This document shows positions 1,317 through 47,693 of a stretch of DNA of 63,921 bases, piece after piece (within the stretch, counting starts at the first letter, position 1; each line of letters opens with the position of its first letter). Made by a program: the position numbers and the translations under genes. The notes under the pieces were generated by a model. It did no database searches. It was not told where the DNA came from and saw nothing but the letters and a program-made list of their open reading frames with translations. This DNA is from a virus. The stretch is from the IMG/VR virus record IMGVR_UViG_3300042466_001456, positions 1-63,921 of that record. One strand, 5' to 3'.

Positions 1317-1940
1317 ATGGAAAATAAATTTAAAAAAAAATTAAAACGTAGAGGTCAAGAAATATATTTAAGATATTTTGCTAATCCAGATAATGTTATT
1401 AATGATATAATCAATCAATATGATAATAAAATGTTAATAAATGAAATTGATTGTGAAATTATTTTTAATGTACCAATTACATATGAAAAAGAAATATATG
1501 AATTATTATTATTTTATCCAAATAAATTAAAAGAATTAAAAATTATTGGTGTTAACGAAATAATTACTTTATATGACGAATATGGTGAAACAATTGATAT
1601 AATGAAAACATGTAGAAGTGGTGTTTCTAAAACTAACGCAAGAGGTAAAATATGTGCCAATGCTAGTAGCAACTCAAAAAAGATGGGTTGTTTTTTTAAT
1701 TTGATTAGTGAAGATATTAAATTAGTTAAAATTTGTCCAATATTAAATATTCCTTTAGTGTATGATAATAATATAGCACTTGATGATTCAGCATCTATAG
1801 ATAAAATTAACCCTAAACTTGGTTATACTAAAGATAATATACAAATCATTTCTTTATTGGCTAATAAAATGAAAAGCTCAGCAACTAAAGAACAATTAAT
1901 TTGTTTTGCTAAAAAAATATTAGAATTATATAAGATATAA
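1317..1940 (+). CDS. HNH homing-type endonuclease
   Basis: The 207-residue protein ends in an HNH/endonuclease-VII-like module: CPILNIPLVYDN around 143-154, SASIDKINPKLGYTKDN around 161-177, then ISLLANKMKSSATKEQL. The pattern C-P-x-x-x-x-P-L, S-I-D-x-I, GY-x-x-x-N and LANxMK is typical of free-standing phage HNH nucleases. It lies opposite to its neighbours, is extremely A+T-rich and is flanked by duplicated sequence, all signs of an inserted selfish gene. Confidence 0.85.
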   Translation: MENKFKKKLKRRGQEIYLRYFANPDNVINDIINQYDNKMLINEIDCEIIFNVPITYEKEIYELLLFYPNKLKELKIIGVNEIITLYDEYGETIDIMKTCRSGVSKTNARGKICANASSNSKKMGCFFNLISEDIKLVKICPILNIPLVYDNNIALDDSASIDKINPKLGYTKDNIQIISLLANKMKSSATKEQLICFAKKILELYKI

Positions 1941-16546: not shown

Positions 16547-16698
16547 GATTTTGATTGATTTGATGATGGTGCAAAGATGTATAAAAAAATTGAAACCTCC
16601 AAATTTATTTTCAACTTTTTTTAAAAAATATTTTTGCTGTTTTATTTGGTTATTAAAAATATTATCCTTATATTTGTATTCTAATCAAACAATATATC

Positions 16699-16956
16699 AT
16701 GTCAAACACAACTCAACGTCCGCTATACGAAATAGCACAAGAAATCAGAAGGGATTGGACAGCTACATCCAAAAATGGTATCTACTTTGGTGCTGTACCT
16801 TACCTAGATGCAATGTCAAGCTTAGACAAGCCAACAGACAAATACGGTTATGACAGTGGCAATAGTATCATCCTTTACTTCTTATCGAATGCTAGTACAT
16901 GGAGAGGTGACACAGCAAAACGTGTGAAGGCTGAACTTAAAGCAATGGGCAAGTAA
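16699..16956 (+). CDS. Hypothetical protein, 85 aa
   Basis: Plus-strand gene with promoter TTTGG (about 16647) and TATATTTG (about 16669-16676). Helical protein (LYEIAQEIRRDWTATSKNG; TAKRVKAELKAMGK), possibly nucleic-acid related. A strong terminator follows. Confidence 0.85.
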   Translation: MSNTTQRPLYEIAQEIRRDWTATSKNGIYFGAVPYLDAMSSLDKPTDKYGYDSGNSIILYFLSNASTWRGDTAKRVKAELKAMGK

Positions 16957-16971
16957 TCTATTAACCAGTAA

Positions 16972-17004
16972 CCCCAGACAGGAATGTCTGGGGCTTTTTT
17001 ATTT
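16972..17004 (+). terminator. Intrinsic terminator
   Basis: CCCCAGACA-loop-TGTCTGGGG followed by CTTTTTTATTT. Confidence 0.85.
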
Positions 17005-17029
17005 CTATACACTTTTAAATTAACACATC

Positions 17030-17215
17030 ATGACAAAAACGTATGAATGTACTGTATCATTCACTTATGATACCAATAGCCCAGAAGAGGCTGCTAGAGA
17101 GTTTATCGCTAATATCCAGAACAATCCTAACTGGTTTGTAGATGTACGTGAGGTAGCTCCAGAAGGCAAGAGCTTTACAGTAGATACTGAAACAGGAGAA
17201 ACTGAGGAAATTTAA
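17030..17215 (+). CDS. Hypothetical protein, 61 aa
   Basis: Short beta-alpha-beta protein (TYECTVSFTYDTNSPEEAA; NPNWFVDVREV) with an acidic tail (DTETGETEEI), resembling small single-domain phage proteins. Followed by its own terminator at 17239-17268. Confidence 0.75.
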   Translation: MTKTYECTVSFTYDTNSPEEAAREFIANIQNNPNWFVDVREVAPEGKSFTVDTETGETEEI

Positions 17216-17238
17216 CCACAAGATACCAGATAACTTAA

Positions 17239-17268
17239 GCTCCAGATTCGTCTGGGGCTTTTTTATTT
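17239..17268 (+). terminator. Intrinsic terminator
   Basis: CTCCAGATTCGTCTGGGG hairpin plus CTTTTTTATTT. Confidence 0.8.
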
Positions 17269-17486
17269 CCCAGAAGCTGATTCTGGTCTTCTGGTTATCT
17301 GGACCCAGAGCTTGAGCTGGGCTGCTAGGCCAATCGGACCGATGTACACAAATGTGTATATATGGGTATCCCTAAAAAGCAAAAGGGCCGCCTCAATGAA
17401 GAGACAACCCAGCTCGGAGAAACCACTCTCCAGATTGCAGTCATGCAACAGTTTTATATAGACCAGAACATGTTCTGGATAATAGA

Positions 17487-17899
17487 CAAAAATAAAATGG
17501 ACCCAACCTTAATTTGCGGCTGGGCCCATTGTTACTTTTTGAAGTGTGAGCTCCGCTGGTTGAGTTTGCGACCCATAAAGAATCAAACGCTCAAATCTGA
17601 TTCACCCAACGGCACTTCTGGGCTCAATGAGAATCCCTCTCATCGACTTGCGTCCCTTGGCAGAGAACCCTTGGGTTTTGGTAAGAGGCATCCCTTCAAC
17701 GTGACAGAGGTCTCACAGTCGGTGGAGTTACGCATAATCTACATTCGCTCCGAAGAGCTCAAACCTAACTTCTATGTCGGTAAACCGAGCCGAAGTATAG
17801 GTAAAGAACAGAGGCTGTATCTCGAAAGTGTTTAAACCTAACAGAGGTGGAGTACATTACCAAAAAACCCAATATTTTAAAGAACTTATTTCTCTTTCA
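17487..17899 (-). ncRNA. Structured non-coding RNA of about 410 nt, unknown family
   Basis: A full promoter (-33 CCAAA complement at 17933-17937, -7 TACCTTTG at 17906-17913) is followed by no minus-strand gene. The transcript ends at a terminator (10-bp stem at 17496-17506 and 17521-17530, then a T-rich tail). The body is much more GC-rich than its surroundings. It contains many hairpins, including GCTC-TTCG-GAGC, ATGAG..CTCAT, AACCC-AA-GGGTT and GAATCA..TGATTC. It lacks tmRNA, RNase P and group I signatures. Confidence 0.75.
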
Positions 17900-17946: not shown

Positions 17947-18072
17947 TTAAATTTTAAAACTTTTTTTTATCTGCTCTGGTGTAAGCTCACCAGAGGCTTG
18001 TACCTTCAAATCTTCTCTCTTCTGGGTTACAGGATGATGCCTGTGTCTAAACTTTTTTTTAGTCATAGACAT
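17947..18072 (-). pseudogene. Orphan C-terminal copy of the 18769-19047 gene, 41 codons
   Basis: Reads MSMTKKKFRHRHHPVT, QKREDLKV and ends IKKSFKI. The C-terminus of the gene at 18769-19047 has FRHRHHPVT, NKIEDLKV and IKKSFKL. The HNH gene lies exactly between them. The simplest reading is the original 3' end of that gene, left behind when an HNH element carrying a replacement 3' end inserted. It may still be translated, since an ATG and a TACCTTTG box are present. Confidence 0.7.
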
Positions 18073-18116: not shown

Positions 18117-18779
18117 ATGACACCAGAAGAGAAAAAAGAAAGAAAACGTCTTTATGATATTGAGTATCGTAAACAAAACGCTGAAAAATTAAAACAAAAA
18201 GAAAAACTTTGGCGTGAGCAAAATGCTGATAAGAAAAAAGAAAGGGATAGAAAGTATCATGAAGAAAACAAAGAACAAAAACGTCTTTATGATATTGAAT
18301 ATCGTATAAAAAATGCTGATAAGAAAAAAGAAATAAACAAACAGTATTATCAAAAAAACAAAGATAATATTAAAGATAAAGGTAAAGAGTATAGACGTAA
18401 TAATAGAGCGACTATAAATCAATATTTAAACAATAGAAAACAAACAGACCCATTATTTCGTACTATTACGGCAATTAGAAGTCTAATCAACCAATCATTT
18501 AAACGTAAAGGGGTTGATAAACCGACAAAAACAGAAATAATTTTAGGTTGCTCTTTTGATGAGTTTAAAAAACACATAGAATCATTATGGCAACCTTGGA
18601 TGAACTGGGGAAATTATGGAAACCCTAAAGATGGTATATTTGAACCAAATAAAACGTGGGACATTGACCATATTGTAAAATTATCATCTGTCAATACGAT
18701 TGAAGAAATAATCAAGCTAAATCATTATTCTAACTTACAACCTTTATGTAGTTATCATAATAGATGGGTTAAAGCTTAA
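18117..18779 (+). CDS. HNH homing-type endonuclease with Lys-rich repeats
   Basis: Residues 1-105 are a highly charged helical region of imperfect repeats (RLYDIEYR...NADKKKE). The HNH core is at about 180-218: TWDIDHIVKLSS, then NHYSNLQPLCSYHNR (D-H ... N ... H/N). The C-terminal domain is paralogous to the HNH gene at 46188-46808 (ILGCSF, WMNW, WDIDHI, NLQPLCSY). It overlaps the tail of the converging gene by 11 bases. Confidence 0.9.
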   Translation: MTPEEKKERKRLYDIEYRKQNAEKLKQKEKLWREQNADKKKERDRKYHEENKEQKRLYDIEYRIKNADKKKEINKQYYQKNKDNIKDKGKEYRRNNRATINQYLNNRKQTDPLFRTITAIRSLINQSFKRKGVDKPTKTEIILGCSFDEFKKHIESLWQPWMNWGNYGNPKDGIFEPNKTWDIDHIVKLSSVNTIEEIIKLNHYSNLQPLCSYHNRWVKA

Positions 18780-19047
18780 AAGATTTCTTAATACAATTAA
18801 CATCAAAGTTTTCATGACTAACTTTCAAGTCTTCTATTTTATTGGTTACTGGATGATGGCGATGGCGAAATTCTGATATTACCCTGTTGCCTTGTTTAAA
18901 GCTACCCATATACTGCCATGCCTCACCAGATTCTGGATGTCTGGCTACGCTTGGTTCTTCCAGACCAGAATTGATTGGATGAACTGTTAGCCAGTTCCAC
19001 ATATATTCCCACTCTGGGCTTTCTACTTCAATGATTACTAATTCCAT
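18769..19047 (-). CDS. Hypothetical protein with HNH-supplied C-terminus, 92 aa
   Basis: Begins MELVIIEVESPEWEYMWNWL; contains EAWQYMGSFKQGNRVISEF and ends FRHRHHPVT..KKSFKL. Its last 30 codons have a second copy at 17947-18072, beyond the HNH gene. Own promoter at about 19055-19086. Confidence 0.8.
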   Translation of the reverse strand: MELVIIEVESPEWEYMWNWLTVHPINSGLEEPSVARHPESGEAWQYMGSFKQGNRVISEFRHRHHPVTNKIEDLKVSHENFDVNCIKKSFKL

Positions 19048-19708: not shown

Positions 19709-20281
19709 TTAATCTTCGTTAAAATTAGGCACAATCTCTGTATAACCCTGTGGCTTTTTGCTTTCAACACTTATGATGTCCCTAGCCCACGTTCCAATGT
19801 ACTTGTTCTCACCCCTAAAGTCACCACCACCACGACCATTGCCTTCGCAAGTCAATAAAGGCAAAGGATGTATCTTTGCACCTTTCCAATCTTTGATTTC
19901 AGCAACCTTGTACTTATCCACAAACTCCTTTTTGCTGTGGTTAACCACATAACGAGTTTCACGTATATTGGGTCTGTCAGTAGGCAATACCTTGTTACTG
20001 TCTTTGCAACGGTCATAGATATTGGTTTTTAACCCTTTGCACAAGTCGGCATAGTCACCACCCCATACAACCCTTTGAGGTTTGTTTTTGATAAGGCTTT
20101 CAAAAGCACTCACAAACTCATTACGAATATAGGAATGTTCCATGAGTTTAAGCCCATTGCCATGCACTACCTCCGTACCGTCAGCACGTTTGAATGTGTA
20201 CTTGATGTCGTGAGAATAAACCCACGCTTTTACTGTTTTCTTGTTGTCAGCCAAAATGACTGCGTTGTAATACTGTCCCAT
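19709..20281 (-). CDS. Conserved phage protein, 190 aa
   Basis: Begins MGQYYNAVILADNKKTVKAW, a start shared by many phage proteins of unknown function. Contains GGDYADLCKG and GNGRGGGDFRG. Own promoter at about 20303-20345. Confidence 0.8.
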   Translation of the reverse strand: MGQYYNAVILADNKKTVKAWVYSHDIKYTFKRADGTEVVHGNGLKLMEHSYIRNEFVSAFESLIKNKPQRVVWGGDYADLCKGLKTNIYDRCKDSNKVLPTDRPNIRETRYVVNHSKKEFVDKYKVAEIKDWKGAKIHPLPLLTCEGNGRGGGDFRGENKYIGTWARDIISVESKKPQGYTEIVPNFNED

Positions 20282-30504: not shown

Positions 30505-30924
30505 ATGAAATATAATGAGAAAAAAAGATTGCAAATTGCGTTACGGAGATTGTATGCAACAAATGCACCAAGCAAAGAAATACTAACTTTAATAGGTATT
30601 GATAAACAAGGTTTTATTAACAATGTTAATAAATATCTATTGGAAGGTATGACCAAAGAAAATTTTGGTAAGATATGGGGTTTAGACCATATTGTCCCAG
30701 TTGATTTATTTGATATAAATGACGAAGCTGAAAAAAAGCTATGTTATAATTATCAAAACATTATTCCTATGTTTAATAATGATAACAGGTTAAAAGGTGC
30801 ATCTGTTCACTTCAGTCTTGCCAAGTTAGAAACCATGTACACAAATGTGTATATTCAACAATTAAAAGAAAAATGTTTAAATGAAATAACTAATAGATAT
30901 GATAAATATCTAATATCTTTTTAA
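30505..30924 (+). CDS. HNH endonuclease, 139 aa
   Basis: KIWGLDHIVPVDLFD (about 56-70), then LCYNYQNIIPMFNNDNRLKG (about 79-98) gives D-H-I-V-P ... N-x-x-P-x-x-x-x-D-N, the HNH core. Shorter than the other three HNH proteins and lacking the Lys-rich repeats. One copy of the TACACAAATGTGTA palindrome lies inside the gene (30838-30851). Confidence 0.8.
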   Translation: MKYNEKKRLQIALRRLYATNAPSKEILTLIGIDKQGFINNVNKYLLEGMTKENFGKIWGLDHIVPVDLFDINDEAEKKLCYNYQNIIPMFNNDNRLKGASVHFSLAKLETMYTNVYIQQLKEKCLNEITNRYDKYLISF

Positions 30925-45913: not shown

Positions 45914-46078
45914 AATATCTGATTGTTTTGTAATAAATATCTAAAAGATAGGAAAAAAGTAGCTAAATATAGTTTATGTACACAAATGTGTACATGAGAC
46001 TGCTAGAATAGTATTCTTTTAAGGTTTTGAATGCGTTTTTCCTTGTCTTCTATTAGGAATAGAGATATTAAAAAAGGT

Positions 46079-46147
46079 TTAATTATTAATTAATGATTCA
46101 AGTTTCTTTCTTAATTTTGCAAGACTTTTTTCACGAATCTGACGAAC
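46079..46147 (-). pseudogene. Orphan 3' end of the sigma factor gene
   Basis: Encodes VRQIREKSLAKLRKKLE and SLINN-stop; the sigma factor ends VRQIRQKSLAILKKKLL and NSSINN-stop. The frame is closed just upstream by TGA. The HNH gene lies precisely between this remnant and the intact gene. Confidence 0.8.
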
Positions 46148-46187
46148 TTTTCAAATTTATGAGATATTTATTTATAAAGAATATATT

Positions 46188-46808
46188 ATGACAAAAGAAG
46201 AAAGGAAAGTTTATATGAAAATTTGGCGTGAAAATAATAAAGATAAAAAAACCATCCATGATAAAAAATATCATGAAAAACACAGAGAAAAAATTTTAGC
46301 AAAATCAAAAGAAAATCGTAAAAAAAATGGTGAAGAAATAAATAAAAAACATAGAGAATATTTTGATAAAAATCCAGAAGCAAAAGCTAAAAAATTAAAA
46401 AGAAACCGTGACTATTTTCAAAAAAATAAAACAAAAATTATTGAAAAAAGAAAAAAGAAACGAGAAGAAAACCCATTATATAGAATGACTTGTATTACTA
46501 GGTCATTAATTCATAACGCTTTCAACAGAAAGGGTTATAAAAAAACATCTAAAACACATGAAATACTTGGTTGTTCTTTTGAAGAATTTAAAACTTACAT
46601 TGAATCAAAATTTGAGACATGGATGAATTGGGATAATAGAGGTTTATACAATGGTACACCAGATTACGGTTGGGATATTGACCATATAATACCTCAATCA
46701 TCAGCAATAACTATTGAAGATGTTATACAATTAAATCATTATACCAATCTTCAACCTTTATGTAGTTACATTAATAGAGATATTAAAAAAGACTTAATTA
46801 TTAATTGA
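46188..46808 (+). CDS. HNH homing-type endonuclease, paralogue of 18117-18779
   Basis: Lys-rich helical repeats up to about residue 100 (DKKYHEKHREKILAKSKENR), then ILGCSFEEFKTYIESKFETW and the HNH core YGWDIDHIIPQSS ... NHYTNLQPLCSYINR (about 160-200). Its stop overlaps the sigma gene tail by 15 bases. Confidence 0.9.
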   Translation: MTKEERKVYMKIWRENNKDKKTIHDKKYHEKHREKILAKSKENRKKNGEEINKKHREYFDKNPEAKAKKLKRNRDYFQKNKTKIIEKRKKKREENPLYRMTCITRSLIHNAFNRKGYKKTSKTHEILGCSFEEFKTYIESKFETWMNWDNRGLYNGTPDYGWDIDHIIPQSSAITIEDVIQLNHYTNLQPLCSYINRDIKKDLIIN

Positions 46809-47693
46809 TGAATTAAGTAATTTTTTCTTTAAAATAGCTAATGATTTTTGGCGAATCTGACGAACCATCTCCCTAGTCACACCTATTTCATCCCCAATAT
46901 CATTTAGTGTTCTTGGTATACAACCATCCAATCCATACAATCCCACCATAACTAACCTATCTCTAGGTTTTAATATATCAAGAACTTCATTTAACTGTTT
47001 CCTTACATCCTCAGTTAACAACTCATTATCGGCAGATTTGAACATAGAATCATCTGATATTGTTTCAGCCAGTGTTGTGCCTTTATCATCACCACTAATA
47101 TCACGGTCCAAAGAATCCATACTATAATCATTTAACGTATCCAATAACATGTATTCATTTTTAAATTTCTTTTGTGTTGATTTACCATCAAAATCTGTAT
47201 CACCACCAAATTCTTCAATTATTTCTTGAATACATACATTTCTACCCAATTTTTGTTCCAACTCATTTATTTGTTTATCCAGTTTGGAAAGACTGTTTAT
47301 TTTATTTGCTGGAAGACGAACCAAACGACCATGTTTTGAAAGATGTTCCATTATGATTTTACGAACCCACCATACAGCATATGAAATAAATTTGAAACCC
47401 ATTTCTGGTTTGAATTTTTCAGCGGCTATTATAAGACCAATGTTGCCTTCATTTACAAGGTCTTCTAATGGATTTTGTGTTGTTGCGTATTGTTTGGCAA
47501 CAGAAACAACGAAACGTAAGTTTCTACGTACCAATTCATCTATGGCTTTTTTATCACCACGACTAGCTTTCTCAGCACAAATAACCTCTTCTTTTGAACT
47601 AAACACCTCAATTTCAGAAATATCTTTAAGATATTGATTGAAAGATTGGTTTTCTCGGTTGGTTACTTTGGATGTGATTACAAATTGCTTCAT
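46794..47693 (-). CDS. Primary-type RNA polymerase sigma factor (RpoD-like), 299 aa
   Basis: Region 1.2/2 (SFNQYLKDISEIEVFSSKEE; RRNLRFVVSVAKQYATTQNP; EDLVNEGNIGLIIAAEKF; GFKFISYAVWWVRKIIMEHL), region 3, and a region 4.2 helix-turn-helix (RTLNDIGDEIGVTREMVRQI). The N-terminus (ITSKVTNRENQSFNQYL) closely follows Bacteroidota RpoD (ITNRESQS-x-x-x-YL), and the length is typical. It would direct host polymerase to -33/-7 promoters. Confidence 0.95.
   Translation of the reverse strand: MKQFVITSKVTNRENQSFNQYLKDISEIEVFSSKEEVICAEKASRGDKKAIDELVRRNLRFVVSVAKQYATTQNPLEDLVNEGNIGLIIAAEKFKPEMGFKFISYAVWWVRKIIMEHLSKHGRLVRLPANKINSLSKLDKQINELEQKLGRNVCIQEIIEEFGGDTDFDGKSTQKKFKNEYMLLDTLNDYSMDSLDRDISGDDKGTTLAETISDDSMFKSADNELLTEDVRKQLNEVLDILKPRDRLVMVGLYGLDGCIPRTLNDIGDEIGVTREMVRQIRQKSLAILKKKLLNSSINN

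Follow-up and report, generated by a model that had tools for sequence, protein, structure and literature searches.

A putative HNH nuclease gene between two C-terminal ends of a phage sigma factor: possible scars of one-sided homing

The stretch of DNA analysed here (the window), a phage record of 63.9 kb, encodes a sigma-70 family factor with matches to Pfam Sigma70_r2 (3.5e-17), Sigma70_r4 (6.2e-08) and phrog_351 (2.5e-52). The stop codon of the sigma gene is overlapped by the ORF of a convergent, putative HNH nuclease gene, the two ORFs sharing 15 nt (46794-46808), and on the far side of the nuclease gene the minus strand of 46079-46147 translates as VRQIREKSLAKLRKKLESLINN-stop (Table 1). 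Aligned with the 23 C-terminal residues of sigma, this displaced tail matches at 17 of 23 columns, one column being a gap, and at the DNA level it belongs to a direct repeat (46058-46147 and 46773-46865) with a score of 92, whereas 1000 dinucleotide-shuffled versions of the left flank averaged 24.2 and never exceeded 43. The original prediction of a diverged sigma C-terminus beyond the HNH gene is thus borne out, with an amendment as to extent: the repeat had been described as a copy of the sigma tail, and it also holds the 3' end of the HNH gene. The left copy starts exactly at GTTCGTCAGATTCG and crosses the sigma stop into a relic that spans the last 11 HNH codons plus stop and agrees with the present HNH gene end at 36 of 39 nt (46058-46096), compared with 50 of 66 nt for the part of the repeat that belongs to sigma. 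The arrangement of two sigma tails is known solely from the window's own record.

Table 1. Features of the window discussed in the text, with strand and the basis of assignment where given.
Feature	Coordinates	Strand	Basis
Sigma-70 family factor, 299 aa	46794..47693	-	ORF; Pfam; phrog_351
In-use C-terminal tail of sigma	46797-46865	-	
HNH-type nuclease gene (putative), 206 aa, convergent with sigma	46188..46808	+	ORF
Displaced second sigma tail, 22 codons plus stop	46079..46147	-	translation; repeat score
Relic of HNH 3' end (NRDIKKGLIIN-stop) fused to displaced sigma tail	46058..46093	+	
Right repeat copy: HNH 3' end plus in-use sigma tail	46773..46865	.	
Native distal flank, located after the sigma-downstream genes in relatives	45930..46001	-	local alignment
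Paralogous HNH gene, 220 aa, convergent with 92-aa gene	18117..18779	+	
92-aa target gene, in-use tail at HNH 3' end	18769..19047	-	
Displaced second tail of 92-aa gene	17950..18051	-	60% aa identity, E 1.5e-06 against window
Homologue of the 178-aa target gene of L053, uninvaded, empty-site reference	19709..20281	-	window

Throughout its length (1-63921) the window carries dozens of intergenic repeats of 60-100 bp, many of them 85-98% identical and some with a TATCTTTGC-like element that we take to be a promoter. Their abundance is what could be said for reading the duplication as a regulatory element, for instance a convergent terminator, that chances to lie in gene ends. That reading is extremely improbable, since the displaced sigma tail keeps the reading frame and the amino acids (17 of 22 aligned codons) and since the other loci described below are unrelated genes whose duplicated ends have gene-specific sequence.

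Assignment of the 206-aa protein as a putative HNH nuclease rests on conserved residues, profile matches below cut-off and weak structural matches. D165-H166, H184, N187 and N196 are invariant in 38 HNH members, and 24 of these 38 aligned proteins reach E<=0.05 against PF01844, the lowest value being 9e-05; the window protein itself matches Pfam HNH at E 0.013, below the cut-off (16 vs 21.4 bits). Its AlphaFold model (mean pLDDT 92, pTM 0.44) has HNH nucleases as its best, though weak, structural matches (Foldseek E>1), and the superposition on 4h9d is likewise weak (Z 3.3, rmsd 3.6 over 63 residues); folds of the I-HmuI and colicin types occur among these weak matches, which is consistent with an HNH nuclease and nothing more. 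A sequence search of the PDB returned no relative at E<=1, a search of NCBIfam returned no match, and a scan of genome contigs returned one HNH relative, at 31%. Two further plus-strand stretches of the window (1317-1940 and 30505-30924) look nuclease-like by eye and are without a Pfam match at E<=0.05, and a 24.9 kb phage contig (G005, with loci L031 and L032) carries four HNH genes of the same family as that at the sigma locus, one of them with an internal stop.

A group I intron or intein was considered and rejected, as a search of the window against Rfam gave no intron family at gathering score and the nuclease has an ORF to itself, the neighbouring sigma ORF being intact. The gene therefore has the appearance of a free-standing homing endonuclease: it lies outside any intron or intein, it adjoins its presumed target, and it is absent from the sigma alleles of related phages (L003, L006 and L039). 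These relatives comprise three distinct sequences, L003=L004=L005 (69%), L006 (61%) and L039=L040 (66%), each with a single sigma tail; a duplicate with no history of an HNH gene, which had been named as the observation that would speak against the original prediction, was found in none of the three. Downstream of sigma the relatives have one to three small ORFs, one family of which is missing from the window. The sequence that follows these ORFs in the relatives has a counterpart in the window (45930-46001), with local alignment scores of 71 against L003 and 76 against L039 (shuffle maxima 45 and 52) and a score of 46 against L006 that is not significant (shuffle maximum 48). This counterpart starts about 78 nt past the displaced sigma tail, and because the shared flank lies so close behind the tail, the window has lost the small genes here. 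Between 45914 and 46078 it is without at least one small gene present in L003, L006 and L039, and on this comparison the invasion would have been accompanied by deletion. Which of the two sigma tails is native is answered in both directions: amino acid scores place L003 and L006 nearer the displaced tail and L039 nearer the in-use tail, and by DNA score the three relatives give one vote each way plus a tie.

A second case in the window, also proposed in the original prediction, is confirmed too. Plus-strand ORFs at 16687-17835 and 18117-18779 are conspicuous in a mostly minus-strand window, and the latter encodes an HNH protein 45% identical to that at the sigma locus, convergent with a 92-aa gene whose tail is found a second time on the far side of the nuclease; displaced and in-use tails have the same residue at 21 of 33 codons. 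The arrangement recurs in three further near-identical contigs (L122, L123 and L124), which excludes an assembly artefact for this case, and homologues of the 92-aa gene with no adjoining HNH gene are present in L125, L126, L127 and L128. As to which of its two tails is the nearer to relatives, the 92-aa case is mixed.

Recurrence beyond the window was assessed with 262 HNH ORFs, which form 142 clusters with complete flanks at an 80% identity threshold; the set consists mainly of the best-scoring loci of the scans and is not a random sample. An unconstrained scan for repeats between the flanks, at its laxest threshold (DNA>=40 or protein>=55), showed no enrichment, with 14 of 142 HNH clusters positive against 29 of 178 control ORFs, because promoter-like intergenic repeats abound. 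When the end of a neighbouring ORF was required to be duplicated across the nuclease with a score of at least 60, 10 of 142 HNH clusters were positive against 2 of 178 controls. One of those two controls (L115) proved to be a GIY-YIG nuclease, as did L193, a weaker control with a score of 50; the other of the two, L089, scored 64. GIY-YIG-like genes number three among the 178 controls, two of them with a duplicated terminus, and with the three removed the comparison becomes 10 of 142 against 1 of 175 (Fisher p 0.003, a descriptive value, as this terminus test was devised after the unconstrained scan had failed and after several positives were known). Two candidates were rejected, L067/L068 as a tandem HNH remnant and L023 as an AT-rich repeat; L104, with a score of 53, lies below the cut of 60, and L108 is a weaker, co-directional case.

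The convergent, C-terminal form of the arrangement is found at six loci, the targets being the sigma gene, the 92-aa gene, a 178-aa gene (L053), a primase gene (L095), a 105-aa gene (L042) and a 5'-3' exonuclease gene (L160); a convergent, abutting neighbour is present at 44 HNH clusters. N-terminal duplicates occur at L064, at L148 and beside a second HNH gene of L053. At L148 the HNH gene (1459-2250) lies between two similar N-termini, which we presume to be release-factor-like; it was a weak antisense ORF, with a score of 60, that brought this locus into the set of ten, and its stronger duplicate has a protein score of 154. The GIY-YIG/NUMOD3 genes at L115 (2212-2910) and L193 (445-1107) overlap the start of the next gene, the N-terminus of which is found again upstream of the nuclease. 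The scope first proposed, C-termini and HNH genes, is therefore too narrow, as N-termini and a second nuclease family are involved as well.

Genomic islands and prophages are known to restore the 3' end of the gene into which they insert, as at tRNA genes and, for e14, at icd. A site-specific, integrase-like element of this kind would lead to an identical outcome, a gene made whole by a foreign end with its former end displaced. Such islands are driven by a recombinase and carry an identical core, whereas no recombinase lies between the two sigma tails, where, antisense ORFs aside, no ORF of 60 aa or more other than the HNH gene was seen; the copies share no identical core beyond short stretches, and the arrangement is displayed by two nuclease families. 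An integrase-like origin is accordingly very improbable. Ordinary phage mosaicism, in which illegitimate recombination between related phages gave rise to a partial duplication and the nuclease was a passenger and not the cause of the break, deserves more weight and is still unlikely. Phage genomes are mosaic, joints with no homology on one side are seen here, and 132 of the 142 HNH clusters are without a detectable duplicate at a score of 60; against this, the arrangement is enriched at HNH genes relative to the controls that are not GIY-YIG, and is present at two of the three GIY-YIG genes too.

The divergence between the two ends bears on how they came to be paired. Over eight loci and 234 codons (the second HNH gene of L053 was left out), displaced and in-use ends differ with pS 0.67 and pN 0.24, a ratio of 0.35 (bootstrap 0.27-0.42) that is biased downward because the loci were picked by protein similarity, and they share 162 identical residues, a number that never exceeded 113 when those substitutions were redistributed randomly; the sigma tails enter this set with the 17 shared residues given above. 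The low ratio and the excess of shared residues suggest that the ends were functional coding sequences while they diverged and were joined only later, and both look as if they had been under constraint, each diverging separately. One alternative is that the gene end was first duplicated in tandem, after which the nuclease landed between the copies and the spare decayed. Two copies do flank the nuclease at every positive locus and the spare copies are truncated, yet the ends differ in the manner of separately evolved coding sequences and not of a freely decaying copy, and at L053 it is the spare copy, not the one in use, that best matches the relatives; tandem duplication is therefore a poor candidate.

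The direction of the exchange is best seen at L053. The body of its 178-aa target gene is identical to that of a relative with no HNH gene (L285) at 340 of 399 nt. The displaced tail matches L285 at 97 of 129 nt and without gaps, the in-use tail at 87 of 128 nt with 11 gap columns, and the 80 bp beyond the displaced tail match at 59 of 80. Comparison with the uninvaded homologue in the window gives the same order (body 303/398, displaced tail 101/132, in-use tail 86/130), and the displaced and in-use copies shift in identity at one common codon boundary. The L053 family was sampled at 80 loci, two of them (L287 and L342) with no ORF at the expected start; with identical proteins counted once there are 57 distinct tails, of which 48 are closer to the displaced tail by amino acid score and eight to the in-use tail, one of the eight (L284) being the same virus as L053 in another assembly, and by DNA score the same tails split 31 to 25. 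Taken together these comparisons point clearly to the displaced tail of L053 as native and to the in-use tail as foreign, imported with the nuclease. At L095 a native displaced tail is favoured, being the closer one in both distinct relatives, and at L042 and L160 the relatives are too distant to separate the two tails. Beside the second nuclease of L053, a fragment at the nuclease 3' end is identical at 71 of 74 nt to the start of the window's uninvaded gene, and the in-use gene start is closer to L285; we infer that the terminus touching the 3' end of the nuclease is the one that travels with it. The two HNH genes of this locus (L053:2176-5518) flank two small genes (82 and 145 aa); the homologous genes of the window and of L285 have no such genes between them, and the pair looks like cargo held between two nuclease insertions. 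The general insertion mechanism first proposed, one that recodes the 3' end of the target gene, thus holds in respect of recurrence at other target genes, of single ends in relatives lacking the HNH gene and of synonymous exceeding non-synonymous difference; the notion of recoding in place does not, as the in-use end at L053 is apparently a foreign import and the stranded copy the original.

The explanation that we favour, with a probability of roughly 0.7, makes the HNH gene a free-standing homing endonuclease that spread by one-sided, illegitimate repair of double-strand breaks. The enzyme would cut or nick the recipient gene near one of its ends; the side of the break that holds the gene body would be repaired by homology from a nuclease-bearing donor, so that a divergent gene end and the nuclease gene are copied in, and the other side would be joined with no matching homology, leaving the recipient's original end stranded past the nuclease. 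The gene would stay functional because the imported end encodes much the same amino acids, and that end presumably escapes recognition by the enzyme. The two sigma tails begin with the same 14 nt, so any such protection must lie in the adjacent, differing sequence. The sigma locus is a less clean case than some, because its stranded tail carries a relic of an HNH 3' end, suggesting more than one invasion. The right end expected for an older unit would look like this relic with its stranded sigma tail, and the odds are about even that two successive invasions took place here, a newer unit having landed on an older one that decayed later.

In Allomyces a mobile endonuclease ORF reportedly replaces the C-terminus of atp6. 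In Glomus mitochondria endonuclease ORFs replace the C-termini of atp6, atp9, cox2 and nad3, and the nuclease there brings a foreign, differently coded end, the hybrid gene is used, and the native end lies on the far side and matches relatives, which the inserted end does not (PMC3630166). As in those elements, the terminus is found on both sides of the nuclease in the phages; the further pattern, of a displaced native end and a foreign end in use, is present at L053, favoured at L095 and mixed at the sigma and 92-aa loci. The fungal elements, as far as they are described there, are LAGLIDADG or GIY-YIG ORFs that follow their gene in mitochondria (PMC3630166), whereas the phage genes are of the HNH and GIY-YIG types, mostly convergent with their target, and affect N-termini as well. 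Among phages, the Seg and Mob endonucleases of T4 are free-standing, engage in intronless homing, spread through break repair and adjoin or overlap important genes; the nucleases here likewise adjoin or overlap such genes and would spread in the same way. The available portion of the T4 review deals with co-conversion under two-sided homology and with split genes (mobE, mobA insertions) and does not mention stranded native termini (PMC2988022). One-sided, illegitimate repair of breaks is known from T4 intron homing, in work cited in the same review, and has homology on one side and an illegitimate junction on the other, as proposed here; it was seen in a laboratory intron system, whereas the loci described here would be natural scars of intron-free nuclease genes (PMC2988022). 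A fungal mitochondrial precedent therefore exists, and in the literature searched, a scope that took in few of the subscription papers, no report was found of native gene ends left stranded next to free-standing endonucleases of phages, nor any other phage precedent.

The end product also recalls a device of genetic engineering. Synthetic cleave-and-rescue drives couple an engineered Cas9 cutter with a part of its target gene that has been recoded so as to be uncuttable, and the phage units would likewise link a cutter to a differently coded piece of the target gene, the resistance of the imported end being putative. A broader proposal, which we put forward tentatively and at somewhat less than even odds, is that the free-standing HNH and GIY-YIG nucleases of phages are natural cleave-and-rescue elements, each a cutter with a foreign, cut-resistant gene piece, that invade, in distant lineages, the coding ends of genes such as those for sigma factor, primase and exonuclease, with no homology required on the far side, and that can stack repeatedly at one site. 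If this is so, it would explain how free-standing homing endonucleases can jump between phages whose homology is limited to one side of the cut, and would account for phage genes with a native body and a foreign end. The boundary of the stranded end would be a candidate cut site that can be read directly from sequence, and natural cleave-and-rescue would become testable in phage. For annotators the lesson is that a short C- or N-terminal fragment next to a nuclease gene may be a relic, and for phylogenies that gene ends can mislead.
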